The notes beneath the pieces were generated by a model. It was not told the DNA's origin, did not search any database, and saw only the letters and a list, made by a program, of their open reading frames with translations. Position numbers and translations under genes: made by a program. A stretch of 64,000 bases of DNA from Limonium bicolor (taxonomy: Eukaryota; Streptophyta; Magnoliopsida; Caryophyllales; Plumbaginaceae): the NCBI GenBank assembly GCA_023374045.1, contig CM041780.1, positions 38,703,030-38,767,029 on the forward strand. The letters are read 5' to 3'. This document shows, in pieces, positions 5,966 to 46,246 of the stretch; positions within the stretch are counted from its first letter, which is position 1, and each line of letters begins with the position of its first letter.

Positions 5966-6479
5966 TGAAATACCCCATACTTAATTAGGGTGATTAAATT
6001 ACTCTAATACGATATTGAGGGCCTATTAGTGCCTAATGAATTTTGGTAAAAGAATAAATCCAAAAGAAATAATAAAAACGCTTAAAGAGCGAAAAACGCT
6101 AAAACGAGCGTTAAGTGACCCTAGGAGAAATACAACCTTAAATAGGGTACTAAATGAATTTAAAGGCTTAATAATGCCTAAATAATATATGTGAACAATT
6201 CCCGAAGAAAACGGATCCATAAAACGAATTAAAACGCTAATAAAGCTTTAGCGCACGTTTTTCGAGAAAACCCGAAAACGTGACTTTGAGTGGTCAAACG
6301 AACCCGTAAAAATTATAGTTCATTAAGTAACTATAAATAAACATTAATGGGAGTATAATAGCCATTAAAATTAAAGAAACGAGAAAATTCCGGAAAACGG
6401 GCCCGGTTAGTGAATAGTGCTAAACCGGGTAAATTAACGAGCGTTTTCAGTAAAAGACAAAAAAAAATGCTCCAGCTGG

Positions 6480-6503
6480 TATATATTAAGGGGGCCGGTT
6501 TTG
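6480..6503 (+). promoter_or_regulatory. Core promoter of A LTR
   Basis: TATATATTAA (6480-6489) is followed by GGGGGCCGGTTTT. The GGGCCG-TTTT motif recurs at the same offset of about 500-545 bp in E, I and, altered, in C and D, and at about 1120 bp in J. Transcription would start just downstream, giving a U3 of about 0.5 kb and about 3.9 kb of R plus U5. Confidence 0.65.
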
Positions 6504-6589
6504 ACTAGTCAAAAAGCCTCCCCTCACACACAATAAAATAGAAGAAAGAAAAGAAAAGTAAAGGAAGAAAGAAAAGTAGAAAAAGGGTA

Positions 6590-6675
6590 ACCCCTCTTCT
6601 CTCTCCTCCTATTCTCTCTTTTCTTTTCTCTTTCCTCTCTTTCTCCTTCTTCCTTGCGATTTTCTCCTCCCTCTC
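6590..6675 (+). other. Pyrimidine-rich leader tract
   Basis: Almost pure C/T sequence (CTCTTCTCTCTCCTCC and similar) at about +630 to +710. C, E and I have the same kind of tract here, in element orientation. It lies in the predicted 5' untranslated leader. Confidence 0.6.
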
Positions 6676-6831
6676 TCTGGTTTGAACATTTTTGCAGCCC
6701 TTCCATGGCTACTCCCCCACTTCAACCTCATGCCCAAGCTTTATTAAAGCTCCAATCACAAAAATAATTACATATTTGAACTCCTCCCCTCATCATTCTC
6801 TACACTTCCCTCTTTTCAAAATTCGAAAAGG

Positions 6832-6918
6832 ATGAGTTTCATCTCCATGGGTTTTCCCCATTTGAAGAGAAAATCACACCATCTTGTAGCTTGGAGTCTC
6901 CTCATTCTTCTAAGGTAA
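6832..6918 (+). CDS. Putative 28-residue leader ORF of A
   Basis: An 87-base ORF beginning ATG-AGT. Residues near the middle read GFPHLKRK and near the end AWSLL. The E and I LTRs have ORFs of exactly the same length there with the same two blocks. The last codons are CTA-AGG-TAA, so the stop codon is part of the donor-like AAG|GTAA. No known protein family is recognised. It lies after a plausible promoter, but conservation could equally be at RNA or splice-site level. Translation is untested. Confidence 0.35.
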   Translation: MSFISMGFPHLKRKSHHLVAWSLLILLR

Positions 6919-7279
6919 AAATTTCATTGAAAAACTCATGTTTGCTCTTCCTCCCTTGGTAGTCGATTTGGCTCTCTCTCACACCTTGTTTTCTTCTTGA
7001 TTTTGAGCTTCAATTCAACTCTCCAATGGTGGTGGAGTTTCCCCTTTGATTCATGGGTGAAAGCCCCTCTTGAACATTCCAAAGGTAAAACCCTAACTTT
7101 GTGTTTTAAGCCCTTAACTTGATTTAGAGTTCCTAAGGGCTTGAGTGGTTAATTGAATCCATCTCTTGTGTTACTTGAATGTGGGATGAGTTTGGTAACT
7201 CTATTCCCACTTGACCGATTTGGAGGAGAGGAGGAGCAAGAGGAGAATTCAAAAGAGAAACTTGTGAATTAAGGTAAGA
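6912..7279 (+). promoter_or_regulatory. Three donor-like sites of A LTR
   Basis: AAG|GTAAAA after 6914, AAG|GTAAAA after 7084 and AAG|GTAAGA after 7273, that is at +948, +1118 and +1307 from the LTR start. The other LTRs show nearly the same offsets. Confidence 0.55.
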
Positions 7280-8132
7280 AATCTACCTTAAGGTTTATTT
7301 TGGATGCTTTAGAATTGGGATGGGTAAATAAACTAATGAACCCAAATATGAATTGAAATATATGTGGAAAATGTGTGTAGTTGGTTCTAGAGAGATTTGT
7401 GAACTTGGGTGGATTTAAGGCCTAAGTGCCATTGTATTTAAAGTTTGAGCTATTGTGGTATATTGTGTTTTATGGAATTTTGATGAGCTTGGGATTGATA
7501 TTGTGTGCTGGTAGGACCCCTTGTGGGTGTGGTTAGATTAGGAATGAAATTGGTGAGAGTTGATGATTTGGGACATGTAAGGTTTATGGGAGGTTGTGGC
7601 GAAATTTTAGTAGAAAACAAGTGTTGTAAGATGACTTAATGTGATGGCAGAACCTAGGTATTTGTAATGTTGAGAGGAGAGGATTGATAGCCTTGAAATG
7701 GCATTTAGAGAACTAGGGGGAAGAGTGTGAAAATCTGTAGCAATGGAATATGGAAATGTTTTAGAAAAACTAGGAAATGAGCTAGTGTGCAAGACTTTGG
7801 AAACAAGAGTTGTGCTTGGGTTTAGTTAACGTACTTGTCTAGGGATGAATTGGTATGGTCATTGATGCTTTTGGTGAGGTTGGTAGGATGTAAAAACTAG
7901 CAAGAAGAAGTTAGAAATGCATAGTAGTGCAAAATGCAGAATGTGAGAATGTGAATTTGAGGAATTTGAGCAAGAATAAGGTAGTGGATTTAACTAATGA
8001 TTTGGAGTGATTTAAGAATGTTTTGAGGTATTTAATTATGTAGAAAACATGTGGAAAGATTAGGAAATTATTAGAGGTGAATTAGGGGTTGAAAACTGAT
8101 GGAAAAATGTAAATTTTGACAGTTCCAGGGGT

Positions 8133-8312
8133 GGTCTGGGTTTGCAAATCGGTACGCAAACCCAGACCATAGCAAAAACATGGCAGAAGGTGACTTCAGA
8201 GGGTGGTCCGGGTTTGTAAACCCGGACATATACCCGGACCATAGCAAAAATGTAACAGAATGTGAAATCCGTGGTTGGTCCGGGTTTGTAACCCCGGACA
8301 CAAACCCGGACC
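8133..8312 (+). repeat. Hairpin array of A LTR (3 units, 72-bp period)
   Basis: Three 36-nt inverted repeats start at 8133, 8205 and 8277, exactly 72 bp apart. Unit 1 arms are GGTCTGGGTTTG and CAAACCCAGACC; unit 3 arms are GGTCCGGGTTTG and CAAACCCGGACC. Both are perfect 12-bp stems with 12-base loops, and the one arm difference is compensated on the other side. Unit 2 pairs over nine bases. Arrays with the same spacing but other sequences sit here in C, D, E, F, G and I. Confidence 0.85.
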
Positions 8313-9340
8313 ATCATAAAACTTTGCCAGAAAGTGTTTTTAAAGGGTTCTAATGATGGGGAAGTGAATGGTATTGGTTTTAGAAGTTGTTAAGGCCTTG
8401 TGTGGTGATATTTAAAGGTCCTAAGAAGTGTAAACAAGTGTAGTAAGTGAGTGAGAAGTAAGGACATAATTTCACATAAGTAAACTAAGTATACCGGGAC
8501 AACGGGGTAAGTACGGGAGTAGTAACTATTGTTGTACCGTATGAGCATAGAATTAATAACAATGTTGAAACATTACCAGTGGAACAAGTGTGAACCAAGG
8601 TACAAGGGAACACATGGTAAAGCTAACTCCGGTGAAAGGTATGATTTCCTCATGCTCTGTATCCTAACTTGGTTACCTCGATTTGTGTGCTTGTTTGATT
8701 GTGTGATCACCTAACAAGATAAATGCACGAATCGGATTGTGTGCACTTATTAGTGCTTGTATGGCATTGTCGCTTGTTAGATTGAATTTAAACTAAGTTT
8801 GTATAATTCATGAAACGGATGAATGATGAATGAGTTGACTGCATGTGATTGAGTATTGTAGTGCGACTCATAGTTGAGTCTTGATTGATTCGCGACTCGA
8901 AGAACGAGTCACGTGGTGGATGATGAAAACGAGGTAACACACGAAAACCATCGATTAACGGACAACGATAAATCAAACCTATAAACTTACTCGAAATGAG
9001 AACAAGCTATACATAAGGCTAGAGAACGTCCTTAATAACAATAGACGACCTCCTGTGCAAGGATGAAACTCAATGTTAGAAAATGAACATATTCCTAAGT
9101 AATGGAAGTGTAGGGGCGACCCTTAAATCGGCAGATACAACAAGATGGGAAAATCTCCTAAGTTGTATGATAGCATCGAGAGAGATGCGGCTGACTAATG
9201 TTTATATATGTATTTATATATGAGTACCTATTGTTACTAACCCGAGAGCTGGGTTAGGGGGGATTGTGAGTCACGGATGCAAGGAAGAGGAAGCAACAGA
9301 GCGTATGTTTCCGAATCCATGGTCGAACTCCCTTGTTACC

Positions 9341-9396
9341 GGGCCGTGTGCCACATAGTGGTGCCCTGCGGGGCCGTGTGCCACATAGTGGTGCCC
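9341..9396 (+). repeat. Two-copy 30-bp direct repeat
   Basis: GGGCCGTGTGCCACATAGTG followed by GTGCCC occurs at 9341-9366 and 9371-9396 without a mismatch. It lies at the position of the second tandem repeat of the other LTRs. Confidence 0.85.
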
Positions 9397-9920
9397 GACT
9401 AGAGTAAGACCGGCAGAGCTTACCCGTCTAAAGAGGTAACTGAGTATTATGGGATAGGAAGAGGGGACATGAGAGAATGTTTCTAATTCCGCTGGTGACT
9501 ATAAAAGCCCGGTGTTGAGACCTATATATGTCTATGCTCGGAGGCCTATGAGGCTTAACTTAATATTATTCAAGAGTGGAATAATTAAGAAACTAGATCG
9601 GGACCGTGAGTGTCCAATGATCTAGGAGTCAAGTAAACCCCCGTTGAGATAGAAAATTGGTAATTAACGAAAGTGAAACTCACTTGAGATACGGTTTCTC
9701 AAGGCTGAAGAATAAGATAGCTGAACTTAACAAGCTGGATGTGAGATCTGTGTGGATTGTATTCCTGGATTGAATGTGGAGTGTGGTGTGAATGTACATA
9801 TATGATGTATTGTTGTATTGCTTGTTGTTTGAACTAAAATGAACTGCACGCTCTCGACCAATTAGTCGGCGTACCCTCGCTAGTACGCGGGGTATGCGGA
9901 AGTCATATTCAGCGTAAGCT

Positions 9921-9952
9921 GACCCCCTAGGGGGAACGTTTTTAGTGTGCAG
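9921..9952 (+). promoter_or_regulatory. CCCC-GGGG hairpin and acceptor-like site of A 3' LTR
   Basis: GACCCCCTAGGGGG is followed by a T-rich run, GTGTGCAG and GTACCC. The site is 465 bp before the LTR end and about 2.7-3.0 kb after the donor-like sites. It is the likely 3' end of an LTR intron. Confidence 0.5.
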
Positions 9953-10003
9953 GTACCCGAAGTGAATATGAACACTGTAAGAGACTGGCAGCTAAGCCGG
10001 ACA

Positions 10004-10023
10004 CCGTTCGAGAGCAGGACGGG
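10004..10023 (+). other. Conserved 20-mer in exon-like part of LTR
   Basis: CCGTTCGAGAGCAGGACGGG, with CCG(T)/(A)CGG able to pair. Near-identical copies follow the acceptor-like site in D, G, E and I, and a diverged one in C. It is one of the few LTR blocks shared almost base for base between families. Confidence 0.6.
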
Positions 10024-10512
10024 GTTGTCATTGATGTGGGTAGTTGTTAAAGCAATTGTATTTGTATACTGTGGGATGTAAGACCAAAAGGGTCTTGGAT
10101 ATACTCGGGAAATTGTAGATACTCTCGGTATAGTTTGAATGGAGATGGTATTTGTATAATTTGGATTTGAAGGTTGTATTTGATTTCTGAATTGGTTAAG
10201 TATCGGAAGCCGCGTTGCATTAGGGTACTCCGGTAAAAGACCCATCAGACCGATATTGTATTTGTTGTAGTATTTGTGTTTGGATTGGCCTCGTTAGTCA
10301 CATAGGTGACTAGCGGCATTGTATCACCCCCGTTTGTAGTTATTGTTCCGCTGCATTATGGTTGGTAATCGAGACGGATTAGGAGATAATGGTGTGATTA
10401 CCGGTAGGGGTGTTACAGTGTTGTGTGCTGGATAGAAATAAGCTTGAGTGAGTTTGATGAAGAGAGGAGAGTAAAAGGAAGAAGGTGGGTATATGTTTTT
10501 GAGCCAAAACTC

Positions 10513-12199: not shown

Positions 12200-12410
12200 A
12201 CAACTTACGCCCCGCGTACTAAACAACACCAACAAAACAACAAACAACATCAACAAACAGCGTATGCCCCGCATACCAAACAACACCAACAAACAACATA
12301 TGCCCCGTATACCACCAACTCACTGTATGCCCCGCATACGAAACAAACCAACAAACAACATCGTATGCCCCGCATACCAACAAACTACCGTATGCCCCGC
12401 ATATGAAACA
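12200..12410. repeat. Tandem repeat with GTATGC-CCC-GCATAC hairpins
   Basis: Five to six units of 30-50 bp made of AACAACACCAACAAAC-type sequence. They are separated by GTATGCCCCGCATAC or close variants (12262, 12362, 12390). Each of these folds into a six-pair stem with a CCC loop. It occupies the same slot as the repeat at 5570-5850 in A but has a different sequence. Confidence 0.8.
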
Positions 12411-12447
12411 ACAAAATTCAGTGCACACATGTGCACAGCCAAGAGGC

Positions 12448-12474: not shown

Positions 12475-15264
12475 CCAGTACCTCACAAGTATACAACAAC
12501 CGCTCAACAAGGAGCACTGGATACTTGGCTCTCATAGAGTTATCTAACTCTCATGTGCATCTTCTACCTACCTTTGGAGTAGATTTTTCTCATATCAGAG
12601 AGACGGGTATGGCTCTAGCCCTCCCGGGCTGCAAAACATTTAAAGGGGTGAGGCACGTGTTTGTGCTCTCTCCCGAATCGGTTTTTATTGGGCCCACTCG
12701 CTCCGTACAAAGGTGCAGACCCATGGATATAGGCTCAGTTTGCCTCTTCCTATTGTCGTATATCCCATCGTTTGGATTACTAGCATACATGCGTGTATCT
12801 TCTCTTACTGATTCTCAGCTTGAGGTGTCATATGACATTGGCATTATGGTACTTAGTGCTCTTTGCACTTGTCTTTCTAATACTGAGATGTACTAGCCTC
12901 CATGTTCACTTAGATAAGGGTTGTCATCCGTGTCTCCTGGTGGTTTTGTTCCGGAGTAACACATTGTTGTAGTTCTTTGATACTTGTTTCGTGTTGATAT
13001 CCATTGCATCTTCTCGTGTGTCGGGTTAGCATCAACGTTCATATGGTTTTTCCTGCTTCCTGCTGGGGAATCCATATATTGTGCTCGTACTGGAGTTCTG
13101 TAACTTCATCTTCCATTTCACATTAATCTTTGTGAGTTTTACTTGTTTAAGTTCACCCACGTATTTATTGTTGATGGTTTGTTCCTGTTGGTCGCTTCCG
13201 CGCGCACCATATTTCAGTTGATTTGCCGGTTGTTAGTTATCGTAACGTTTGTTCCTTGCTCGAGGCATCAGCTAGTGTGCTAGCTCTGTCTTTCATCGTT
13301 GCGTAGTCATGCGTTTAAGTTCGCATCATTCAGTAGGTTCCTCTGGCCCGTTGGTTTAACTGCGGCTCTTTTCGTCCATCTTCGAGGTGATCTGCATCAC
13401 TGTCCGTAGCACGGGGTTGACTACTTCTCGTGTTCCTAACACTACTTGTCTACATGCATGGGTACCGTACTGATACATTACTACTTACCCGACTAACTTA
13501 TAAGTAAGTCTGTCAGGCCCATATGCTCCTATCGGAGTGCGGTCGTCCCATGTCTCTTTTAGTTTAATGGTAGCGTCCGTCACACGGCTATTGTGAAGTA
13601 TTCTATTGTCAATCTCCCTTTTGATGGATGTCCTTGTTGTAGTTTGATGTTAATTGGTCCGCATTGTCGGTTATCTTGTCGTAGGTGCTAATGTCCTAGT
13701 AGTATGGTGGTAAAAGTGGTTGAAAACATTATTTTTGTTCCCTGGACTCATGTCCTTAGTACTACATTTCATCTGGTACTCATCTCTAAAGGTAGCACTT
13801 GGTTGTTAATCAGTTAAACGTTAAATGTTGGTTCGTCTGTATGGCTGCAATAGGTTCATGTAATATTCGTTCAGAGCTAGCATTGTCAGTTCTCCTATCT
13901 CGATCTCCATGAGTACTATACATATTCTTTTCCTCCTAGTTAAATTATTATCACATCTCATCTAGAATCCCGATACGGTGTAGGGTAAGTTCTCATACTT
14001 GGGTATTCATATTTGTTCCCTCTTCCGTTTAATTGGGTGTATTGTAGATTGTATCACTGCTTGAGCAACTCGGCTCTTCACTTTTCAACCATTCTCATTG
14101 CTGGTACTACATCCACAAAGGGTATACCATTTGTCAAAAGATTATGTTTGTCCATTAGGACTAAACGTTTATCACTTTTAGTGATTGGCATTGATTGCCG
14201 GTATATACTTTTGGTATTCGGCTAGTAAGCAATGTTTTTGTTGTTACTTATTATTTAGTGCTAGTTATTTGTAACTGCAGTTATTTTTATTTCAGGTGCG
14301 CGGTTTGGCGCCTGTTAGTAACCCATCATTGTTATCCCCATTGGTTACAGTATGTACCGTAGCTCTTTTACTTCATTATATTAACTTAGACATTGTTATG
14401 TTAGCAGTATACCTCGAAAGGTGATTGGAGTCGGTGTTCCCGGTCTCCTGGGCTCATGTCCCTTATTTGTACATTAGGTACTTGCTTACCTGCGCTATTT
14501 AGCGTTCGGTTTGAGTGTTTGTAATATCGATTTAGTTGTTTGCCATTATTTTAATTTACACATTCATTCATCATTGATAGTCATCACAATAGTAAACGAC
14601 ATGTTTTTAACACATATTGGTACTCATCATTTTTACATGGCAGAATGCCAACGGCGGTAGCCATTCTTCTACTTAGAACTTGTCTCATAATCAGTATGAT
14701 ATTGATAATACACCTAAAACTTAATCTTGACGTTTGTTCGTTTTTTGAAATACCCCAAACCTAAGTATGCTAAGTAAACATCAATTTATGAGGTAATAAG
14801 GCTAAAACATGCCTTATTAAGATTGGTAGACAATTTAAACCCAGGAAAACACAAGAAAACACCTTAAGGGCAATTTGGGCAAAATGTGGTCTAAGCTTGG
14901 AGTGACTTTGATTAGAACCCAAATATCATTATAAGACCTTATTAACATGCTAATGGACATGTTAAATCAATTAGCAAAGAAAACCAAGCTCAAAAACAAG
15001 CTTAAACACAAAATGTGCTTTAAGACTCCTTAAAGCACCTTTTTGAGAAATTGTCTTAGAAATGAGTTTTGAGTGGCTAAATGCCCATGATTACACCTTA
15101 ATCAACATGTGTACTAATTAGTATCACATTAGGAAGTCTAAATCAATGGGAAACCAAAAATTTCAGAAATTTGTGCACCAATTAGTGAATAGTGCTCAAA
15201 TAGTGCTAGTTTTGACTTAAGTTAACTTAATTAGTCAAATGGCCAAACAATGCCATATGTATCT

Positions 15265-15286
15265 TATATATGAAGGGGGGGGGGGA
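15265..15286 (+). promoter_or_regulatory. Core promoter of C LTR with a run of 12 G
   Basis: TATATAT (15265-15271), then GAA and twelve consecutive G (15275-15286), then ACGGTTTT. The other families have GGGGCCGGTTTT here; the long G run may be an expanded form of it. Confidence 0.65.
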
Positions 15287-15636
15287 CGGTTTTAAGGGGA
15301 TGAGTCACCATAGGGGACAGCCAACTTAAAGGAAATGAGAGGAAAAGTTGTAAATTCACTATTCACCATTATAAAGCAAAATATCCTTTATTAGCCTACC
15401 TCTCTCCTCTCTTCTTCATTCCTCTTCTTCTTCCATGGTTTCCTTCTTCTTTTCTCTGTTCTAAAGCCGTCCAAGCAGCACCCATGGCACCACCACCTTG
15501 CTTTGTCCATAACTTGCTCGTTTTAGCTCCAAATCAAAAACTAAGCATAGAATTCTCTTAGTTAGACCAAGGCCTTGCTTCCTATCTTTTCAAAATTTGA
15601 AAAGATTCATTTTGGAGCCATGAGAAAACTCCATTG

Positions 15637-15690
15637 ATGGGGGAAATCAAGTTTGAAGACCTCTTTTGGTTCTCCATTCATCCAAGGTAA
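15637..15690 (+). CDS. Putative 17-residue leader ORF of C
   Basis: ATG-GGG-GAA to CCA-AGG-TAA. The stop again overlaps the first donor-like site AAG|GTAA. The peptide differs from those of A, E and I, and only the ending is shared. Weak on its own. Confidence 0.25.
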   Translation: MGEIKFEDLFWFSIHPR

Positions 15691-16055
15691 TGAAAATGTA
15701 AGAAAAACCATGTTTCCACCACTTCTCCTTCATTGCCGAAAATTTCTTCTCATGGGGGCCTTGTGTTTATGCCTTGTTCTAGCTTGTTTTATTCACCAAG
15801 GACTAGTGGAGGTCCTCTTTCATTCGTTGCCCAAGTCTACTTTGAACTTCAAAGGTAATCATCCACTTTTATGTCTTAAAACACATTTTTTTAACCTAAG
15901 ATTGAATTCTATGAGTTTAGGCATATTTCTTAGTGCTCATTAGATTATTTGAATGGAATTAGAACATTGGCAAGGGAGATTAAATTGGTGGCCGAGATTC
16001 ATTCAAGAAAATCCCTAAGGAGGAAGTTAAGATAAGCTTGGAGAAACAAGGTAAA
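15684..16055 (+). promoter_or_regulatory. Three donor-like sites of C LTR
   Basis: AAG|GTAATG after 15686, AAG|GTAATC after 15854 and AAG|GTAAAT after 16050. Spacings of 168 and 196 bp match A (170 and 189). Confidence 0.55.
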
Positions 16056-17342
16056 TGTTTTACCTAATGGTGGTTTAAGGTTTGAAGGGATGAGATTTAG
16101 ATAAGTCCTAATGTAGCTTAAAGCTTACATTATGTAATGAGTTATATAACCAAGGAAAAAGAATTTAAGAAAGCTTGTGAACTTGTGACTAAGGAGCCAA
16201 TGGGAATGAGTTAGTAAGATAAGTTGAAGGTGGATTTTAAGAGCATTATAAGTACTATGAGGTTGATGGGTGTAATTGCAGGTTGAAAGCTATTACATGT
16301 GGGAAATTCAGTGTTTATATTCATGTCATTTAAGGGCCTAAGAGACATGTCATTTAAGAGCCTTAGTGCTATACAATTTAAGATTATTGCACTATATTGA
16401 GTTTGTTGTGAATGAGTTGATTTGGGTGAGAAAATATGATGAGAAAGGATTTGATTGGTGTGAGATGATTGTATGAGAAAAACAATACATTTGGGCATGA
16501 TAATATACTAGAGGAGCTATGGCGAAATTTGAGTAGAAAACAAGCGTTTAAGTGGTGGCTGTGAATGGATATGACCTAGGATCTACTAAGAGTCCTTAAG
16601 GAAATTTGGGTGAAAATAAGTTAACGACAGTGTTCTTGAGGATTAGAATGACTTAGAATTGTTTAGGAAGAATTAGAGGTTAGGAGGGTGTAAAACTAAA
16701 TGTTGGGTGTAGTAATATACTAAGAAAGCCATGTCAAAATTTGTAGAGAAAACTAAGTGTTTAAGATGTTCTAAGGAGATTTTATGACTAAGGATGTTCT
16801 AGTAACATTTAGGGTTGTTTTGGTGAAAATGGATAAACTATGGAGTTCTTGAGTACTAGGAAGACATAGGGATGTCTAAGAGGGACTAGGGGTTATAATG
16901 GTGAGTTTTATGCACCAAAACCATGGTTAAGGAAGCTAGGAAACTTGTAGAAACTTTGAAGGAAAAATAAGGTATGATGACTTATATGGATGTAAGCATG
17001 TGCTATATTATATGTAGCTTTGAGAAGTTTGAGTAATGCAAATGGGTATGCATAATGATGATTGAGGAGTAGTTAAGATGGTTGTGAAGAAGCATGAAGA
17101 TTAGTTGAGGTCTTAGGCAAAATCACAAGTGGGAAGTGTAAGAAATCAAGTGTTAAGTGTAAGAATTTTGTAAGAAATTGAGTGTCAAGTTTGTGATGTT
17201 TGAGGAAGGTTTAGTGCATGTTTTAAGGTGTTTAAACATGTAGGAAACATATGGAAAGATTGTGGAATGAGTGGGAAAAGATTGGGGTGAATTTGGAGTT
17301 CAAAATGAGGAGAAAAGCACTTTGGAAAATAGATTCTGCTGT

Positions 17343-17440
17343 GGACCGCCCCTAAGGACCGCTCCTGTGGGGAGGTCCAGGCAAATTCTGCAGGAAAATA
17401 GCTTCTGGTTGGGACCGCCCCTGGGACCGCCCCAGTGCAG
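17343..17440 (+). repeat. Hairpin array of C LTR (2 units, 69-bp period)
   Basis: Unit 1 (17343-17378, 36 nt): GGACCGCCCC pairs with GGGGAGGTCC apart from one G-A mismatch. Unit 2 starts at 17412 with GGACCGCCCC but lacks the matching right arm. It is the most decayed of the arrays. Confidence 0.65.
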
Positions 17441-18589
17441 AGAAAAAGAAAAAATTTTGTTTTTGGCTTCTAATGATGGGGAATTGAATGGTAATGGTTT
17501 TAGATGATGTTTAGGCCTTGTTTGGTGACATGTAAAGGCCTTAAGAGGTGTAAACAAGTATGAGGTGTATGAGAAGTGATTAACTTATATGATTAAGTTT
17601 AAATTACAATGACTTAGTGGTCCAACATTATGGAGTGATGATGATTAGAAAGACAAGCATGTAATGACTTAAGAGGTTAAGGTAAGTAAAATGGTTTTAA
17701 GTGTTTAAGGTTAAGTTAGAAAGAATTTATGAGGAGCTAGATGGAGATTGATATGTAATGATATATAAGGTTGTTTAAGACTTGTTTGGTGAGTGACAAT
17801 GATAATTAAGTGGGTGAATAGGTATAAGGAATGAGGAGAAGTGATTCACTTAAGATTAAGTTTATAAGAACTTAAATGGTATTTAGTTGGAAATCATTAG
17901 TGATTAAGTAAGCTAGGTTAATTAAAAGTAATTAACCACCAAATTCAATGAATGTTTTAGGACTTGGGGATTTGGACTCCGGAGGAGAGTAAGCAACCGA
18001 AACGACCAACGGTGAACGGTACAGTTCTTCTTGTGACCTGCTTGCTAACGAGGTGTCCCTCGGCTTGTGTGCTATCTGTTTATGTGTGCCGGCTAAACAA
18101 GAAAGCATGCAACCGGAATATTATGATTATTGTATTGTTGTGCGATGGTTGAAAACTAACACAACTTACCGTGAGAACCTACTAACTAATGTTTAGTAAA
18201 GAATAGTGTGAGATTAAGGAACACTCCCAAATATTGTTTTCTTCTTAGTAACCGAAGGAGGTTAACTAACAAACATTGTCTTGAGACTTCTACTAACTGG
18301 AACTTGGGGGGAGTGAGGAATTCGGGACTGACTCCAGTCATGCATGTTAAGGAAAGGGGGTCGGTATCTAAAGAAGATCCGATTTCCGCTTAAGGACTTG
18401 TCTCCGGACTTGTTGCCTAGGGTCGGTAGCTAGTTCAGCTACATTGGACATACAGTCCAAGGTAAGAGGCATTAAGATGGTGCGGTAGGATCACCTAAAT
18501 CCTACGTTTTAAGATGAGTTGTTTATTCAACCAAGGGAGTTAATAGCTCATTGGCTAGGGTTGCTTTTGACCCGACAAAAATAAACATT

Positions 18590-18780
18590 GAGATAAGATA
18601 CAATCGTTTCTATTTAAAGAATGGTTAGTATTCTAGGATTAAGATAAGGTTTGAGATAAGATACTACTATTTCTATTTAAATAGTGGTTTGTATAGTGAG
18701 ACTGAGATAAGCTACATCCATTTCTATTTAAAGAATGGTTTGTTTTCTAAGACTAAGATTGAGGTAAGATAAGGTTGGAC
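18590..18780 (+). repeat. Three-unit tandem repeat, 61-63 bp period
   Basis: Units begin GAGATAAG at 18590, 18653 and 18714. Each contains TTTCTATTTAAA followed by a GTGGTT or ATGGTT block. It occupies the second variable repeat slot of the LTR. Confidence 0.8.
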
Positions 18781-19010
18781 TAAGAATAAGAGGAAACATA
18801 ATTTAAGGAATTAAATAATTGACTCACTAATTAAGGGAACGCATTTAAGTTGTCCATTGTGTCTGAACTTTGACTGTTCATATTTGGCTTGTTGTTTATT
18901 GCACTTTCTATTATGTTGTGCATCTAATCAACCTCCATGCTATCGACAATTAGTCATCATAGCCACGTTAGCTTGGGGGCCATGAGAGGATCGTACCAGC
19001 AATTTTGTTG

Positions 19011-19041
19011 ACCCCCTTTGGGGGCTGTTTTTACTACACAG
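19011..19041 (+). promoter_or_regulatory. CCCC-GGGG hairpin and acceptor-like site of C LTR
   Basis: GACCCCCTTTGGGGGC, a T-rich run and ACTACACAG|GTGAAC, 300 bp before the LTR end. Confidence 0.5.
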
Positions 19042-19341
19042 GTGAACGTCAGAAGGCGCCCGTCATGAGAGTAAGATGGGGTAGACGTGTTACGGGTTAA
19101 GTGTGGCCTACGAGTTGTGCATGTACACTCGTATGGTACTTCGAGTTAGTAAGTTGTATAGGATGTGAGGGGATTGTAAGAATGATATGTATTTGGTTAA
19201 GACTTATAAGTACTAATGTTCGGTATATTCTGTTAGTCAGACCGTGGCAAGGTCCTGGAATGTATTTGAATCCGCTGCAACGTTTGTATATATGGTGATA
19301 AGTTTGTGATAACCACGATTGGATCGAGATGGGGTGTTACA

Positions 19342-22441: not shown

Positions 22442-22792
22442 TGTAACACCCCCAACTGCAATCACGCCATTACCTCTTAAACTATCACAGTTACCAATAA
22501 ACTCACAGCGGAACTCTAAATACAACAGAGGGTGATACAACGCCGTTAGCCACCCATATGGCTAACCAGGCTTATTTCCACATACAGTAACGGTCTGATG
22601 AACTGGAACAACCGAATACACCATACAAATACAATACTCAACTCACTTCTTTACTATACCGAGTCTACAATATATGGATGCCGACAACATATTCGGTCTT
22701 ACACCTCTTTCAATACATAAGTAATTAAATCTAACTACCCATGCAATCCACCGATCCCGTCCTACTCTCGAACGGTAACATCTTTGGTGTAC

Positions 22793-22825
22793 CTGTAAAA
22801 TAAAAGCGTTGCCCCTAGGGGCTCA
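22793..22825 (-). promoter_or_regulatory. Acceptor-like site of D LTR
   Basis: Minus strand: GAGCCCCTAGGGGCAACG, then TTTTATTTTACAG|GTACACC. It is followed by the conserved CCGTTCGAGAGTAGGACGGG block near 22757-22776. Confidence 0.5.
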
Positions 22826-23079
22826 GCTTAACGCTGCATATGAAATTCGCATACCCCGAGCGCTAACCGGGGTACGCCGACTACTTTTGTCGGATATACA
22901 TGGTGTTCACTTAGTCAAACAACATGCATCATAGCAATACAATATATATGCGTATTACTCAAGGAGTCTACATCCAATCACGGAACACAATTCCTAACTA
23001 ACAACAAGGTTGTTAGTTGTATCTATTTACTCTTAGGCCTTGAGGGTTATACCTCACTATGCCTTGTTTACTTATTCAA

Positions 23080-23275
23080 TATCTCACCCGCTCTCTCGGG
23101 TTACTTATTCATATACACACCCATTCTCTTGGGCTACTCGTACTATACTCACCCATTCTCTTGGGTTACTTATACTCGCTATCTCTCACCCACACTTTGG
23201 TTATTTGTACTCATTATCTCACCCACACTCTTGGGTTATTTATACTCAAGCTCTTGAAGATTCTCGAGACACTGC
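23080..23275. repeat. Tandem repeat of about 43 bp in D LTR
   Basis: Four to five units on the pattern CTCACCCA-TCTCTTGGGTTA-TTATACT, each with CCCA/TGGG that can pair. Repeated open frames of 88 and 121 codons here come only from the repeat. The G copy is at 49910-50075. Confidence 0.75.
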
Positions 23276-24528
23276 AGGTCTCCTACGTCACGCTTGTTAC
23301 TCTTAACACATACTTAGGCCAAAACTCATGGCTCTCAAGCATAGTCTTACTTCCCCGGTTTCGACCCTACTCTGGTCTAGCATGGTGGGAAGGTTCAACT
23401 AGCTCACGAAACTCTCTCTCTTAGTTCCTAACTCTTTTACTTAGGTCCGACTACTCTCGGACTACTCTCATTCCCATACACTCCTCTCTCGGAGATATAA
23501 TTATTATTATGTGTTTTAGTCTGGAAGCATCACTCTCGATGTTTCTAATGACTTTGGGAACAATTCACAAGTTCGGTTAATCTTAGGTTTTAAGAGTTAC
23601 CCATACGTTTCATTTACTCATACGTTTGGTTATTTTCTTATACTGGGTAAATCCTCATATAGGAGGTCGACCATGTCTCAAGGGAGCTACTAATCCCTTA
23701 GGTCTCTTTTACCTTCTTTACTAGTTCACATCTTCTAACTATCGTTAATCCTCATAAGGGAGGTTCACTTATCTTTCCACTCTCATTTGTTTCGTGGATT
23801 GTGTCATTATGGTTTACTAACCGTTATCGGGTATTATTACTCAACCCGCACATCTCACTCACCTCATTCTAGGGGTTAGTTTCATATGTTTGTGTTTCGT
23901 TATACTTTAACGGATAGTTTGTGTGTTTGCACGTTTTCTTTATCATAAGCATCGACCCGATCTATGGGTCTCTAGCCAAACGTTACTCACTATGAGTCGG
24001 TCTTTACTCTATGTTAGACCACACCGGCATACAAGTGTGTTAGCTCATTTAACATACAACAAGACATACATAATCAAACAAGGGATTCTTTTCATGCTTA
24101 GTCTTGATTAAGCCGGCATACAAACACACAAATCAACGTAACTCGTCGTTAGCACGCGGAGTATGTGAAAATCATACCTTTCACCGGGGTTTTACTTTTA
24201 CCGTGTCATCTCACTCTCACCATGCTCGGGTCACGCACGATTCTCTGGTAATGTTTCAAACATTATTATTATTAATACTAGGCTCATACGGTACATAATA
24301 AAACAATATACAGCTACTCCCGTACTTACCCCTATTTATCCCGTTACCTCGGTTTTTCCCTTTTAATTATTTGAGTTCTCACTTCTCAATCACTTTCTAA
24401 CACTTTCTTACACTTCCTAGGGCCTTTACATGTCACCACAACAGGCTTAACATCTTATAGCATCATTAACATTCAAACCCCCATCATTAGAAACCTTTAA
24501 AACACTTTCTGTAGGATTCTGGGGGGGT

Positions 24529-24854
24529 GGTCCGGGACTTGGTCCCTACCCTAAGTCCCGGACCAATGCTGGTCCTAACTCTCGGCCTTATTTTTGAAGT
24601 GGTCCGGACCTTATACATCTCTTAAGTCTCGCACCAAACCTGCACTCGAACTCTCGGCATGAATTTCAATATGGTCCGGGACCTTGTCCATATCTCTAGT
24701 CCCGGACCAGGTGCAGACATCTATCCTCAGCTATTAATTAAGGGTGTGTCCGGTACATGGGCAGGGACTTAAGTCCCGGACCAATCAAACTGAAAAACTC
24801 TCGGGGTAGTTTAGGGGGTGGTCCGGAACATGGTCCTAGACCTAGTCCCGGACC
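24529..24854 (-). repeat. Hairpin array of D LTR (5 units, 72-74 bp period)
   Basis: Units start at 24529, 24601, 24673, about 24747 and 24820. Unit 1 arms GGTCCGGGACTT (24529-24540) and AAGTCCCGGACC (24553-24564) form a perfect 12-bp stem with a 12-base loop. Unit 3 arms are GGTCCGGGAC and GTCCCGGACC. Units 2, 4 and 5 carry point changes or one-base losses. The stem is the same on either strand. Confidence 0.85.
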
Positions 24855-25567
24855 CGCTGCTACAGATTTTACATTTGGCATTTCCAAATCTGTTACAATT
24901 CCATTCTTCCACCATTTGATTTCCCAATCTTTCCCACTTGAAATCCACATGTTTTAGCATCTAAATTCCCATCTGAACCATCTCAAACTAATCACCAAGT
25001 CCACTCACTATGCCATGCTCAATTCACTCAAATTCACTTATATTTTCATAACTTGGTCTCTTGTTCCTTAACTCCTTGTAACAGATTTTGGAAACCTCTT
25101 CTTACCATTCTAACTTCCATCATTAATACCATTCCCAGCACTCATATGACATTATTTTACTCCTAACACCCTCTTCTTCTTAGTTGGGTTTTCAAACCAT
25201 TAACCAACCTTAAACTTCTTAAACACTCCTAGTTTCTTCTTTAAAATGAAACACTCATATCCATACTCCCCTAAGCAAATTTTGACATCACTTGGCTACT
25301 TTCTATGCATTCTCACCACACCAAATATGCTCACAAACACTTCTTCTCCCCTGTTTGGTTTAGACATCAAAAGCCACCTCAAATTCCCATTGTTCACACC
25401 AATGAACTAGCTTAGACTCAAGCTTATTTTCCACACTTAAGCAACATTAAAACATTCTCATTCCCACTCAATATTGTTGTACCATGACTACACCAATTCA
25501 AGAACATTAAACCAATTCTAAATCCTGTTTTACAAGTCAAATAAAACCAACTCAAGGTGAGCTTATT

Positions 25568-25950
25568 ACCTTGTTTGTTTTCGGTTTTCTTCCTCCTCTT
25601 CTTCCTCTTTCTCTTGCTCTCTCCTTCTTTCCTTGTTTTTACCACACACAAGGGAGTCTAGATTGCTATCTACAATCATATCCCCATAACACACATATCA
25701 AGCTATTAATTCAATTTTTGGCCCTCACAAAAACTAGTATTTAAGAGCTAGTTTTTAAGGCTTAACCTTGACATTACCTTAGAGTTTCCAAATGAATAGC
25801 TAAGGCAATCAATTGATGGAATTTCCAACACTCCACAAGAGCATGGGTGAGGAGCCGACTGAAATGGAAGAAAATTTTCAACGTGGAGAAAATTTTCCAA
25901 ATTGCAAGAACAAGCTAGAAATGAGTAAAGCTCTTGCTTATAATTACCTT
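25568..25950 (-). promoter_or_regulatory. Three donor-like sites of D LTR
   Basis: Minus-strand AAG|GTAA with exon ends at 25948, 25778 and 25570. The F copies are at 39446, 39280 and 39078. Confidence 0.5.
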
Positions 25951-26885
25951 AAGGCATCAAGGAGGTGAAGGAGGGTCAAAATCAACTCCACAAGATTCAA
26001 AAGGGCCAACACCCATGGAGGTGAAGGTGGAGGAATCAAGATTTTATTGGGTGGAAAACGAAGCCCTTGCCGATACGAATCTAACGGTAGCATTTTTGTG
26101 CGATTCGGTGAAGAAATGAGCAAGTTAGAGGAGGAAGAAGATGGAGCTTGTGAGCTTCCTTTGGATTCGGCATTTACAGAGGAAGAAGAAGGAGCTTAGT
26201 TGGAGGGGGAGAAAGCGATCGTGAAAGAATAAAGAAGGAGAGGAGAGAGAGTAGTAAGGTCTCTTTTTACTATTCCCCTTTTTACTTTACTTATTTGTCA
26301 TCTTGTGACCTTATAAGCTAACAAGCTAATTAAATGTGTGCGTGTGCTAATAAAAATTGGCCCCACACAAAATACAAGCTTGGAGCGTTTTCGTTTTTTT
26401 ACAAGAAACGCTCGTTTTTTACTCGGTTTGGCACTATTCACTAACCGGGCCTGTTTTTCGGATTTTTCTCGTTTAATTAATTTAATGGTTATTAAGCTTC
26501 CATTAATACTTATTTATAGTTATTTAATCAACTATAATTTTTACGGGTCCGGTTGACCACTTAAAGTCACGTTTTCGGGTTTCTCGAAAAACGTGCTTTA
26601 AAACTCCGTTAGCGTTTTAGTCCATTATTTGGATCCGATTTCTTCAGGAATCATTCCCGTATACTAATTAGGCCTAACTAAGCCTTAGGAATCCATCTCG
26701 GACCCTAACACGATCATATATCTCTTATACTTATTTAATGCGCGTTTTAGCGTTTTTCGCGTTTTACGCATTTTCTCTTTTTTTTGGTTTTATTTCCCTT
26801 ACCAATACTCTTTAGGCACCATTAGGCCCTTAATAATCATATTAGAGTAATTAAATCGTGATTTTTAGATCCAGGGTATTAAAAT

Positions 26886-29790: not shown

Positions 29791-30742
29791 TACCTTATAC
29801 CATTAAGGTTTGGAGGTAATACTGGGTTTTGTTATGGTTGTTTTATCACGCTTCCGTACATGGAAGTCCCTTTAAGTACCTTGGTATCATTCATGCCCTC
29901 TGGCGCATTTAGGGTATCCCGTGTTACGTGGGACCCTTCGGGTTCTACCCGAGTGTTCGCTTTAACACTAGTGTCTTAAACGATACTTCGTTCAACTACT
30001 GTTGATTCCGGCACCCTTTACGGATTCCTAGGTAGTTTACTGAGTTGCGCCATTACATCTGGCTTGAACTCATGGTTATATCAGTTTCTTTACTCCGCTC
30101 TGCGGTTAGGTATACTTTAAATCATCCCATTTGGGTTGTAACGTCTCCCGTTATTGGGTAGATCATCGATTTTTCTCCCTTACGATCCTGGTCAGGTCGT
30201 TATTCTCCTCAGTAAGGTATGTTGTGGAATCCTATCCTGTTAATCAAACATTGATATGATCATTTAGGGCATTCATCTTATTGCTTACACTGGTATTCAT
30301 TCCAGTTATTAGGTATTCCTCCTTAATTCTGAGGGCATCTCCAAGTCTATACTTAATATATGTCTTCTCAACTTATCCACGCTATATCCTTAGGTCTGTC
30401 ACCTTGCTGGTTTCTAGACTCCTTTCGCTTGGAAGCTTCTCTGTGTTCTTCGGTCATTCGAGGGTGTCCCACTATCTTGGTTTGAATTGGCTCTTTTGTC
30501 CATAGTATGGAGTGGGCTACTTCCCGTGTTCCGTACTCTACTTGTATACATACATGGAGTATCTTATTGATACGTTGCCACTTACCCGACTAACTCATAA
30601 TTGGTCTGTTAGGCCCGCAAGCTCCTTCGGAGTGCGGTCGTTCCATGTCTCGTTTGTGTACACTTGTAGTGTCGGTCACACGCCTAGGTGAAGTATTCTG
30701 TTACCAACTCCTCTTATAACGTCCTATGTTAATTACCGTGGT

Positions 30743-33505
30743 ATTGGGTGGTTATTCTCATACATCGGTCGCCTGTTGCGCACCATGTTCTTACTGATTT
30801 CACGGTATTGGTTCACATGGCATCCGTTGTTGCTAGCTTCAGCTCATGCATGTCTATCATTCATACAATGATTCCCCATGTATTTGGCAAATATAGAATA
30901 TAGTATTCCTTTATTTTTCTGAGCTCCCTCAGCATCATTGGTTTTATAACTGGTTACTCCTTGGTTGTCAACATTGCTGTTGAAGCTTATTTCAAATTGC
31001 TTGACAATAATTGTATGCTCAAGCTTGACTACGTTAGTAGTTCTTAGAGGAATATATTTCCCGACAGTTACTGATGATATCCCCTTCTTGGGGTCCATGT
31101 GTTCACCGCTCTTGCGGTCTCACATTTATGAGGGGCATCCTCAATTATTGGTTGTCACTCTTTTATCGGTGTCATCCTTGACCACTTTCCGTATAGTTCA
31201 CATTGGTTTTGCAACCGTTGGGTTGTGTGGTAACAGTTTCATGGCCTACTAGCCATGTTGCCTAGAGCTCTGCTCATTATAGGCTGTTCCCAAGTGATTA
31301 TTTCTCCATAACCATCGCTGGATTTGGAGGTGATACTGGGCTCCCTGACACGATCGTCACATCACGCTTCCGTCTGTTGGGGACCCTTTTTGTAGCTTGG
31401 TATTGATTTGGGGTATCCCCTGTCAAGTGGGATCCCTTCGGTGTTCTAACCGAATGTTCGTTCCAATTGTGGTGTTCTTACCATGACATTTCATTCAACT
31501 GTGTTGACTTGATACCCTTTATGGATTGTTCCTGGGTGTTATTGATTATGCTATCACCTCTGGCTGATATTTATAAGTATGTTCAGTCCGTCATCCTACC
31601 TTGCGGTTCTGGATTTGAGTCATCCCATTAGGGGTTGTAACGTCTCCCGTTCTTAGGGTAGACCATTGGTGTTTTTCCTTGTGTTATAACGGGTTTGATA
31701 TCCCTTCCGGTGATGAATGGTATTTCTGGTACCTTATAACATCACCCTGTGTGTTTGTGGTAGTTGTTCTGGGGATTCTATCCCGTTCATTGAACACTGA
31801 TGTGTTAATGTTAGGCATTTGCCTTACTGTGCTTAGACTGGGTATTCCCTCCAGTCATCATGTTCTACTTCAATATCTTTGAGACATGTCCAATGTCTTA
31901 TCCCGTTGTTAGTGCCTCTTGCACTTTCAACTCTCAATGGTTCTCCTGGAGTGAGTTCTTGACTCCTTAGCTTGTAACTTATCTGAGTTTCTTCTGCTCA
32001 TTTTGGGTATCCAACTGTTCCGTTTTGAATTTACTTATGGTCCGTAGAACGGAGTTGGCTACTTCCCGTGTTCCGTACACTACATGTATACATACGTGGG
32101 GTACCATCTTGGCACGTTACCACTTACCTAACTACATGTCAGGCCCGCAAGCTCCTTCGGAGTGCGGTTGTCCCACATCCCGTATTTGGGTACACTAGTA
32201 GCGTTCGTCACACGCCTAGGTGAAGTATTCTATTGTCAACTCTTCTTGTATCACTCTATGATACTCACCGTAATTCCGTCTGTTGGGTTTTAAAAATCCA
32301 AGGTTTTAAAAGAAGGTTTGTGGTTTTTGAAGAAAAATTTGGTTTTCGAAATAACGGTTCGGTGTTAAGAATTCTTCATGGCGTTGCCATGTTTCAGGTC
32401 TTGACCAAGTTCAGCTTCTTGCTGACTGGTATACTATTAATACAATGGTCGGGCCGTTAGGCCTTCCCGAGGGTTCGTTATTTAACATCCTTAGGATTGG
32501 TGATCCTGCATTTGCTCCATCCGTCATAGCGGTACTGTAGTAAGCATTTGCGGTTTGGTTAAAGTATTCCAACCGTTCTGTTGTTACTGCACTTGCCCTA
32601 GGCAAGTGCGCGGGTAGGTTGTTTTTCAGTTAACGTATACCGTTTACGGCATCGTTTCCATCCATAGTTGGTGGTCTTATCAGGTTTTTCTTTGATCTTT
32701 CGATCTTGGTGATCGATTTCCTGAGTCGCTTCTCAGTATACTTGACATGATTGTCGTCCATCCGGGTGTCTCACACCTTCAGTGTGGTTAACGAGACTTG
32801 GCTTGTCCTTAGGAACCATGTTGTGGTCCTATAGGTGTCTGTGTTATGATTTCTTTCATCGCTATCTGAACTATGTTGTTGGGTCATTACAGCCTCTTGG
32901 CATGTAGGTTTGGTATTAATCCAACCTCGACTAATTCCTTAGTCGGTTTGTATACCGTTGTTGGTATCATCAAAGATTACGGTCCGTAGACTCTCTTGTC
33001 TCGGCTTGTTACTCCATCTTCCTTGCTTCATTGCACAATTGTGCTTCTCTTCTTGCTGGCCACACATGGTTCTCGCGACTACGAAGCATGTCGCCCCATG
33101 GTGCCATAAATTCCATTATCCCTGTGTTTAGGATCTTCCTTCCTCCGCCATTAAGTGCGGTCCTTGTAATCAAACGGGAACCGTCTTCGGGACTTCCAGT
33201 TCTTGGACTCTACCGTATGACAGGTTCTTTCTTAATAAGGCTTGTTTTGTAATGCCAGATCGGGTTTTACCTGAGTGTGAGAGGTCTTTCCATCTCTCTG
33301 GCGTTATTATTCCAACTTTATACCGGGGATTGCGGAGGGCGGGGTATGGTTGTTGTAGGTTTCCGATTCATATGGAAGTTCCTAACTAGCGTCCTCGCAC
33401 ACTAGCACTCAACCCTTAGCCCTAAGTCTCTACTTCCTAACTCGGTATTTACCTAAACTCGGTATTTCATCCATCAGAGCGATACTTCGCTCTGATACCA
33501 CTTTT
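30743..33505 (-). mobile_element. Element E, internal domain (PBS-proximal part)
   Basis: Minus-strand domain from the primer-binding site at 33489-33500 leftwards to the junction at 30742/30743. It carries PBS hairpin, leader hairpin 2 (33254-33302), hairpin 3 (33075-33094), hairpin 4 (32589-32609), hairpin 5 (32152-32162), hairpin 6 (31105-31118) and hairpin 7 (30767-30784), in the order seen in A. About 1.5 kb (30743-32280) corresponds to a region also present on the D side (29165-30741), so the join created a partial tandem duplication of two diverged versions. No coding capacity is seen. Confidence 0.82.
33473..33500 (-). other. Primer-binding site and PBS hairpin of E
   Basis: Minus-strand TGGTATCAGAGC at 33489-33500; the perfect 10-bp hairpin spans 33473-33496, identical to that of A. 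Confidence 0.92.
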
Positions 33506-33893
33506 TGTAACACCCCTACCGCTAATACCGTCATTACTGTACAATTACTTACCTTCGCAGCGGATACTCCTTACACAACGGCGGGTGTACAATGCCGTTA
33601 GTCACCCACGTGACTAACAAGGCGAGTTACAGTACTACATACTATCGGTCTGATGAACATGAACATACCGAGTGCTCTACACAATACAATACTTCCCATT
33701 GCATACTCATCCATATCCAATTACAACTCCAATGCATTACTATACCGAGTATACTACAATCCTTAAATTACCAATACAATTTAAACTCCCAAATTCGCAT
33801 TACAATACGAGTACCAATCCCTTCCATACAACTACCCATGCTTACGCAGCAGTCCCCGTCCTACTCTCTCGAACGGTGATCAGCTTCGGGTAC

Positions 33894-33926
33894 CTGCACA
33901 CTAAAAATGGTCCCCCGAGGGGGTCA
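33894..33926 (-). promoter_or_regulatory. Acceptor-like site of E LTR
   Basis: Minus strand: GACCCCCTCGGGGGACC, a T run and TAGTGTGCAG|GTACCC, almost the same as in A. Confidence 0.5.
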
Positions 33927-34129
33927 GCTTACGCTGCGCATGAAATTCGCATATACCGCGTGCTAACCGCGGTACATCGACTACTTTGGGTCGAATATAC
34001 ATGGAGTTCATTTACATGCATGCATACATACTCATGCTACAACAATACAAACAACAAACACTACACATAGACATACAATTCTAATACTTATCGAGGAAGA
34101 CAGTTCGGTAGTCAACCTTTCGTGTTGTG

Positions 34130-34440
34130 TTCATTCATTACTCATCGTACTACATTCGATATTCGCTACTCTTCTCATACCTACTCCTTACTCTTACATA
34201 CTCGACACTCCATGTTCGATACTTTACTAGTATACGTTCCTTACTCCGTACTCGTTACTATTCTTATGTATGCTCATTACTCAATACTCCTTACTTACTC
34301 ATACATACTTGGTACTCACTACTTACTCATACATACTTAATACTTGGTACTCATTACATACTCATACTCACTTCTTACTCAATACTCATTACTTTACTCA
34401 TACGTACGCAATACTCAATACTCATTACTTTGGCCACCGG
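34130..34440. repeat. TACTCAT-rich low-complexity repeat
   Basis: Irregular repeats of ACTCAT, ACTTACT and CATAC. It produces overlapping open frames of up to 178 codons with no protein-like composition. It fills the second variable repeat slot of the E LTR. Confidence 0.7.
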
Positions 34441-35570: not shown

Positions 35571-35816
35571 CGACCGACTTGCGACCGACCTTGCAAGTCC
35601 GGTCCATTCCAGTAGCTATCAGTACGAAAATTTTCTGTCTCGACCGACTTGCAAGTCCGGTCGATTCCAGTAGCTTACTGTCGCGGAATTTTTTCTGGCC
35701 GACCGGACTTGCAAGTCCGGTCGCAAGTCCGGTCCATTCCAGTAGGTTGCAGACGGGAAAATTTTCTGGCCGACCGGACTTGCAAGTCCGGTCGCAAGTC
35801 CGGTCGGCCCAGTAAT
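35571..35816 (-). repeat. Hairpin array of E LTR (4 units, about 60-71 bp)
   Basis: Units start near 35571, 35641, 35700 and 35771. In element direction a full unit reads GGAATGGACCGGACTT, a 14-base loop, then AAGTCCGGTC. It also contains a perfect 22-bp palindrome with arms GACCGGACTTG and CAAGTCCGGTC. The unit aligns with that of I, with two compensated pair changes. Confidence 0.8.
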
Positions 35817-46213: not shown

Positions 46214-46246
46214 GCTGACGTGTCCAGGGCTAGGGACACGTGTCGC
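46214..46246 (+). other. Inverted repeat in H (GACGTGTCC/GGACACGT)
   Basis: Arms of eight to nine bases around an eight-base loop, upstream of a TATA-like CCTATATCTT near 46322 (+519 from the LTR start, the same offset as in A and C). Confidence 0.5.

Follow-up and report, generated by a model that had tools for sequence, protein, structure and literature searches.

In the long terminal repeats (LTRs) of Sireviruses, which are Ty1/copia elements, palindromes named RM boxes occur in clusters that precede a TATA box near mid-LTR; most of them have a CGG-CCG core, and their sequence varies between elements while palindromy and place are kept, according to the description of these LTRs in PMC2829016, which also names the U3 boxes of Tnt1, a second system with which the arrays described below can be compared. 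In the structure profiles reported in PMC10760457, maize Ty3 elements present no obvious structure peak. The 64,000-nt stretch of Limonium bicolor DNA analysed here (the window), drawn from a host genome of 2.92 Gb, is packed with long LTRs, many of which carry tandem arrays of GC-rich palindromes near their middle. Judged from sequence, there is about an even chance that these arrays are a palindromic module with a cis-regulatory role, placed mid-LTR in a retrotransposon superfamily that is LARD-like and non-coding.

The LTRs start with TGAAATACCCC and end with GTGTTACA, the 5' LTRs being followed by the primer site TGGTATCAGAGC, and their ends presumably resemble those of Tekay-type Ty3 elements. 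The complete LTRs measure 4452 bp in family A (a 3' LTR at 5966-10417, plus strand, with TGAAATACCCC and GTGTTACA at its two ends, the last 870 bp of which are 97% identical to positions 3-874), 4596 bp in C (14746-19341, plus strand), 4442 bp in D (22442-26883, minus strand), 4535 bp in E (33506-38040, minus strand), 4072 bp in I (52476-56547, plus strand) and 3839 bp in H (45803-49641, plus strand), while J is truncated by the window end (60027 onwards). H is a solo LTR flanked on both sides by the 5-bp duplication AGGGG and is inserted within the G/F LTR of family D. Mutual similarity (57-72% in the pieces aligned by BLAST) links A, C, D, E and I, and H and J align weakly with each other and with none of the remaining LTRs. 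D, F and G are 94-97% identical and are therefore one family, so that the array-bearing families number five and not seven, as the first-pass annotation of this DNA had counted them.

The longest plus-strand frame in the interior of element A encodes 92 aa, and neither ten plus-strand pieces of this interior (E ≤ 1) nor ten other frames of the window (E ≤ 0.1) have a Pfam match; in 5.2 kb of the interior of a young C-type copy, judged by frame length only, the longest frame on either strand is 116 aa. The 97% identity between the two LTRs of A over the comparable 870 bp makes the decay of a recent coding interior unlikely. Among the genome matches listed for the conserved flank described below, same-strand neighbours are often separated by 9.0-10.4 kb, the distance that 4.4-kb LTRs on either side of a 5-kb interior would give. 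The elements look LARD-like, with LTRs of 4.1-4.6 kb and an LTR pair and primer-binding site around an interior without detected coding; LARD LTRs are 4-5 kb long, as are those of the elements here. At 30742-30752 similarity switches from a D-type to an E-type interior, as if two elements had recombined, and elsewhere in the genome three evenly spaced LTR matches stand in a row at G000:C4:316757361-316777128 (about 9.7 kb apart) and G000:C1:194121987-194140853 (about 9.4 kb apart), as in tandem LTR-interior-LTR-interior-LTR elements. Moreover, the A, C, D, E, F, G and I arrays recur at 95-100% identity, in the same order and with nearly equal spacing, at G000:C5:5365626-5421861, some 33.3 Mb away on the same contig, which represents either a segmental duplication or an assembly duplicate.

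Each of the seven places named in the first-pass annotation does hold tandem GC-rich inverted repeats, and the arrays lie at 0.46-0.59 of LTR length in A, C, D/F/G, E and I. H (complete) and J (cut by the window end) have no array, so that five of the seven LTR families in the window carry one and the assertion that every family does is true for one LTR group only. Specifically, array A (8132-8313, plus strand) is made of units 8132-8169, 8204-8241 and 8276-8313, with three units in 28/28 aligned A copies; array I (54394-54715, plus strand) is made of units 54394-54429, 54465-54500, 54535-54572, 54608-54640 and 54679-54715, with five units in 21/21 aligned I copies; and array C (17342-17434, plus strand), for which 40 copies were compared, contains unit 1 (17342-17379) and unit 2 (17411-17434, an arm of which is lost in the window copy). 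On the minus strand, array D (24528-24854) has five units, the outermost being 24854-24820 and 24565-24528, array E (35571-35816) has units of 42 and 34 nt and two imperfect ones, and two further arrays belong to family D, namely G (51315-51642) and F (38041-38356), the latter interrupted at 38041 by the beginning of LTR E. The copies compared, window copies included (with F and G counted under D), amount to 28 of 40 listed for A, 30 of 40 for D, 30 of 40 for E, 40 of 40 for C and 21 of 40 for I, many of them being LTR pairs or duplicates and hence not independent.

In each 72-bp repeat, two arms of 11-14 nt, separated by a constant distance, form a dyad, which is complemented by a spacer of about 34 nt. 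In the window, neighbouring detected units are 70-75 nt apart, where mostly 69-74 bp had first been proposed, while the spans proposed for single units (36 nt in A, C, D and G, 34 nt in E and I) are replaced by 38-42 nt in A (A1 being 14-10-14), mostly 38 nt in D and G (11-16-11 to 14-8-14), 38 nt in C, 42 and 34 nt in E and 33-38 nt in I. The arrays had also been said to differ in sequence between families, which is half right: A and D arms have TGGTCCGGG...CCCGGACCA in common, E and I arms share GACCGGACTTGC and GACCGACCTTG, and C stands apart with GGACCGCCCC, giving three arm types across five families. In many units the middle is a third copy of the arm, either direct (E, C and one of the listed sites of the position-5 form described below) or inverted (A2, A3, D2); in the genome-wide sample described below, 17 of 97 distinct units have such a copy, all inverted (6-nt match; 0.7% in shuffles), so that the third copy is common and not general.

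A scan for perfect, GC-rich inverted repeats (arm of 8 or more, loop up to 30) found 4 in LTR A, 0 in C, 4 in D, 6 in E, 2 in H, 8 in I and 0 in J, against means of 0.1-0.5 per LTR in ten Markov shuffles of each, and the repeats located within the array are 4/4 in A, 2/4 in D, 4/6 in E and 5/8 in I. A tandem-repeat finder (TRF), suggested earlier as a check, reports the arrays at A, E and I and none at C, D, F and G. The lowest-energy 110-nt sense window falls in the array in all five array-bearing LTRs, and LTR A has a further low-energy window (-47.2) at 3881, outside the array. Rfam yields no match in the window at gathering thresholds, with sub-threshold hits only at array A (best E 0.14), and a search for other array types in the long loci retrieved from the genome gave one cluster outside the list of known arms (L085), which is itself E-type.

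Several observations lie beside these arrays. LTR E starts inside the F palindrome array, in the middle of a unit (38040/38041); for LTR elements, a palindrome preference described as only weak is given in PMC6911290. At position 1222-1249, LTR E has one more hairpin, GGGAATGGAGTT, which stands singly, has a loop of 4 nt and is found in nearly all long E-family loci. Another tandem array, with the palindromic core CGTATGCCCCGCATACG, lies at 12241-12413, outside the LTRs studied, and tandem 33-35-bp repeats (TCATTATCTCACCCACACTCTTGGG...) occupy 23068-23248 and 49971-50069, in the later portion of LTRs D and G.

The sequence TCTAATGATGGGGAA follows array A at 8349-8363 and array C at 17469-17483 (both plus strand), and the claim that this downstream flank is conserved stands, within 3 mismatches, for A, C, D, G and I, and fails for E. 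Genome-wide, a longer version of this flank, TTCTAATGATGGGGAATTGAATG, with up to 3 mismatches, has 12,935 matches (6,506 and 6,429), and the reversed control has 0. From 100 exact places listed on the chromosome-scale contigs C1 and C2, 40 sites were chosen with the array ignored in the choice; they form 11 groups at 80% identity, three of which contain 31 loci. Arrays missing from most intact copies had been named as a refutation, and all 40 flank-chosen sites have at least one GC-rich palindromic stem upstream (at least 8 pairs with one mismatch tolerated, in a scan without shuffle control), with only one stem each in L166 and L188. Both arms are present at 117 of the 120 expected positions of units 1-3, as anchored by arm sequence, a fourth unit occurs in 16/40 loci and a fifth in 5/40.

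To anchor the units of this flank sample, a partial match to GGTCCGGG/CCCGGACC was required no more than 8 nt from a multiple of 72. The comparison leaves out 2 of the 138 units, whose span is 45 nt, as well as spacers shorter than 25 or longer than 45 nt and those spacer pairs within a locus that involve unit 1. Within arrays, the identity between units is 0.909 in arms (178 pairs), 0.626 in loops (178) and 0.567 in spacers (82), compared with 0.445, 0.450 and 0.472, respectively, in shuffles, whereas corresponding units of different groups are 0.78-0.85 identical in arms, 0.49-0.71 in loops and 0.55-0.68 in spacers. The anchoring itself favours the arms, of which it uses eight bases each; among the bases not used, the next three reach 0.95, the four just outside the palindrome 0.36 and ungapped spacers 0.51. 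The period is 71.9 nt with an SD of 0.74 over 95 intervals, a spread bounded by the 8-nt search window on either side, and the arm-to-arm span is 36 nt in 108 and 35 nt in 26 of the 138 units. The geometry proposed to be under selection is held, whereas the proposal of a freely changing sequence finds no support: between units of one array in the 40 copies chosen by their flank, arms are 91% identical against 63% for loops and 57% for spacers, so that conservation is highest in the arms. Arms and spacing are under constraint, loops and spacers are not. The first formulation, in which the sequence is free and the geometry fixed, is reversed for most copies, which keep both arm sequence and geometry. 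Divergence along the LTR, which is lower in the array than upstream in A and D, was set aside because the copies had been chosen by similarity in that very stretch.

The arms differ between types, and the copies of C and E indicate how they may change. Unit 2 of C is a 38-nt trio of arm, arm and inverted arm, with a stem of 9 or more pairs in 32/40 copies; in the window copy it is broken by a deletion. The eight broken copies present seven forms, all singletons except the one shared by the window copy and its segmental duplicate, and the stem is intact in both C forms that more than two copies share (16 and 7 copies). Two C loci, L105 and L126, have TCT in place of the loop AGA while the arms are unchanged, an inversion rather than three substitutions, and in several E copies a 12-nt arm module is lost or gained. 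Distinct indels of 5 nt or more within units number 7 in C, 5 in E, 1 in D and 0 in A and I, and in the spacers compared (A, D, E and I) there is 1 in E and none in D, A and I. Gain and loss of whole arms, together with the inverted loop, suggest that hairpins form during copying. Slippage by arm-sized steps and loop inversion offer a mutational route to compensated change, so that compensation alone is no proof of structural selection; better evidence of constraint, modest in number, is the contrast between arms and spacers and the failure of broken C units to spread.

Covariation across families was assessed on 102 distinct units (identical ones merged from 138) with 1000 shuffles. Watson-Crick cells amount to 1313/1836 against 1229 (SD 10.5) in shuffles and double-change cells to 104 against 54.7 (SD 6.2), and 0 of 1000 shuffles reach either value; controls with slid arms give 284-692 Watson-Crick and 25-46 double cells. 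The number of pairs with a double change (13 against 10.2, reached by 38 of 1000 shuffles) and of extra pair types (22 against 18.9, reached by 79 of 1000), which are less prone to shared ancestry, are a weaker signal. The doubles come from few events, namely a block at positions 8-9 in which TTTG/CAAA became ACTT/AAGT, the replacement of G-C by T-A and by A-T at position 5 and again at position 0, and that of T-A by C-G at position 10. The compensated G-C>T-A transversion at position 5, TGGTCCTGG...CCAGGACCA, occurs at 410 genome sites (reversed control 0), and the 15 sites listed of these 410 have 14 TTTG backgrounds and one ACTT background, so that it either had several origins or moved from one background to another. 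Replacement of both arms, as first suspected, is thus borne out across families, where covariation exceeds shuffles, whereas within families it is weak or absent: A has 3 double cells (reached by 3/300 shuffles), D has 1 (37/300), and E, I and C have 0, one E unit and one C unit absent from the reference row being left out of this count. The compensated pair first pointed out between units 1 and 3 of A (T-A in unit 1) is present in only 2 of 28 A copies, that of the window and that of its segmental duplicate, and was rejected as evidence of RNA pairing, as it amounts to a C>T and a G>A transition at two CpG sites that mirror each other; other copies have T.G intermediates. Mispair types show no wobble bias (23 G.T against 26 A.C; 20 against 15 in an earlier count on A, D and E with D unit 1 left out) in a test low in power because most mispairs are post-insertion decay, and of the mispair cells (62 G.T against 40 A.C) about 30 of the 62 G.T are one fixed pair in D unit 1. 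Without a wobble bias and with little covariation within families, nothing favours pairing in the sense-strand RNA.

Regulatory signals around the arrays differ between families. Directly after array I lies a TATA-like ACTTATATATAAAAAA (54720-54735, plus strand), with CACTTATA[AT]A in 21/21 I copies, which may be a promoter; a TATA-like motif also lies about 60 nt after array E. For A, C and D, no TATA[AT]A[AT] occurs within 600 nt, the next one being at LTR positions 3238, 3017 and 3640, respectively. The arms of A and D begin and end with TGGTCC and GGACCA, and these hexamers occur 4 times in the A array, 10 times in the D array and 0 times in the remainder of both LTRs. GGACCA is the core of the TCP4 site, given as gGGaCCAC in the consensus reported in PMC2553836, which makes a TCP-class factor a concrete candidate for the TGGTCC...GGACCA arm type only; since the C, E and I arrays contain no GGACCA, TCP cannot be general. 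RM-type palindrome clusters of Sireviruses form CpG islands; here the observed/expected CpG ratio is raised in E (1.30) and I (1.32) and not in A (0.78), C (0.39) and D (0.66).

Fixed spacing within and between dyads, kept arm sequence and a mid-LTR place fit a DNA control region, and a loop of constant length is more in line with paired sites on DNA than with a hairpin in RNA. As such a region, the arms would act as double-stranded DNA, either as sites of dimeric transcription factors or as an upstream promoter element, and transcription and copying of the element would depend on their being kept, and sequence turnover would come from hairpins formed in reverse transcription or replication, through slippage between arms, inversion of the loop or copying of one arm onto the other, so that both arms change together. 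RNA from the arrays could, in addition, be a source for small-RNA silencing, which has been reported for Sireviruses. The regulatory reading is limited by the lack of a nearby TATA in A, C and D, and the compensated change could come from arm-to-arm copying alone. The alternative of an RNA-level function, in which a row of hairpins in the element RNA would serve packaging, dimerisation or export, as a non-autonomous element relying on the proteins of a helper would require, draws on the stable local folds exactly at the array, on stems that are kept while loops vary, and on cross-family compensated changes above shuffles, yet it has to contend with the missing wobble bias, the weak or absent covariation within families, the weaker pair and pair-type measures and a loop length that is rigid in the flank sample. 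These points leave RNA as the reader of shape without support, which the first-pass annotation had put forward alongside a cruciform, and such a function is rather unlikely.

Palindromes and repeats could also be functionless by-products of mutation, made and kept perfect by slippage or template switching in reverse transcription, an explanation also offered for the hypervariable tandem repeats of Tat-lineage 3'UTRs in the relevant part of PMC7004042. The arm-sized hairpin indels, the loop inversion in the two C loci and the 12-nt module of E are what this would produce, but slippage between units would homogenise the spacers too, and these are near random next to arms 91% alike, with a sharp edge between them; broken C units do not spread, and the expected units are nearly all in place (117/120 in 40 copies), so that an origin by mutation alone is unlikely. 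The arrays might instead matter mainly in a silencing conflict, either feeding small RNAs or escaping them by a change of both arms, a possibility to which the three arm types in five families lend themselves and which has a precedent in the maize Sirevirus palindromes, presented as small-RNA hotspots in sections of PMC10760457 and PMC5311732. However, the arms are the conserved and not the variable part in the flank sample. Hairpins of 33-42 nt are, in addition, short compared with known plant small-RNA precursors, and a main role in silencing is improbable. A composite of these ideas, speculative and quite unlikely as a whole, would have a protein-less retrotransposon superfamily keep the 72-bp dyad ruler as a key to transcription or packaging and rewrite both arms in one step by hairpin-templated copying, such that the sequence read by silencing changes and the geometry read by a factor stays.

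If the cis-regulatory reading is right, palindromic LTR control regions are not exclusive to Sireviruses, and elements that code for no protein and number thousands of copies possess a counterpart. The five families and the roughly 13,000 flank-marked copies would then be a natural experiment on how a two-arm dyad changes without loss of function, and the same set bears on whether hairpin-templated copying, and not selection alone, yields compensated change, a question of arm copying that bears on every covariation argument drawn from repeats.

Set against known systems, the arrays resemble the Sirevirus RM boxes as a cluster of short palindromes near the middle of the LTR whose sequence differs between elements, and an RM motif, CACCGGACTGTCCGGTG, resembles the E arms (both from the RM box descriptions of PMC2829016). 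The CGG-CCG core is found in the palindromes of A, D, E and I, and in C a CCG is present in one arm of unit 1 only. Conversely, by the same descriptions in PMC2829016, the arrays differ from RM boxes in belonging to a non-coding element with other junction sequences, in being longer two-arm dyads with an 8-18-nt middle and a fixed 72-bp period, and in having a TATA directly after the array only in family I, where RM boxes lie upstream of TATA in general terms. The Sirevirus PPT octamer AGGGGGAG before the 3' LTR is absent in A, which reads AAGGGGGTAGAT/TG and retains the AT/TG part, and the Sirevirus 5' junction CA/ATTGG before the primer-binding site is absent as well, A, C and E reading CA/AAAAAG and F CA/AAAA, in each case followed by TGGTATCAGAGC; by these two signatures, the elements are not Sireviruses. 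The maize Sirevirus palindromes are nonetheless alike in forming a palindrome-rich, fast-evolving and hairpin-folding cis region of the LTR, as portrayed in the corresponding sections of PMC10760457 and PMC5311732, and should the elements here prove to be Ty3-derived, a counterpart of such arrays outside Sireviruses would be new with respect to the profiles of PMC10760457. In the titles and abstracts that searches of open-licence papers listed, no palindrome array of this sort is described for Ty3 or LARD elements. LARDs such as barley Sukkula share an interior without detectable coding and a very high copy number (as characterised in PMC7215508). The Tat-lineage 3'UTR repeats are likewise tandem, at one place and different between families; as located in the portrayal of PMC7004042, they lie between pol and the 3' LTR, whereas the arrays here lie within the LTR, are palindromic and keep arm sequence and period. 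Among the systems considered, the remaining one is Tnt1. Its U3 boxes are tandem, dyad-symmetric regulatory boxes of the LTR that vary between subfamilies, as do the arrays here, but Tnt1 is a copia element with short LTRs whose boxes have been tested experimentally, whereas the present arrays are putative control boxes. Taken together, the arrays are most likely a control region of a known sort, akin to the RM boxes of Sireviruses, but belonging to another class of elements, which is non-autonomous.
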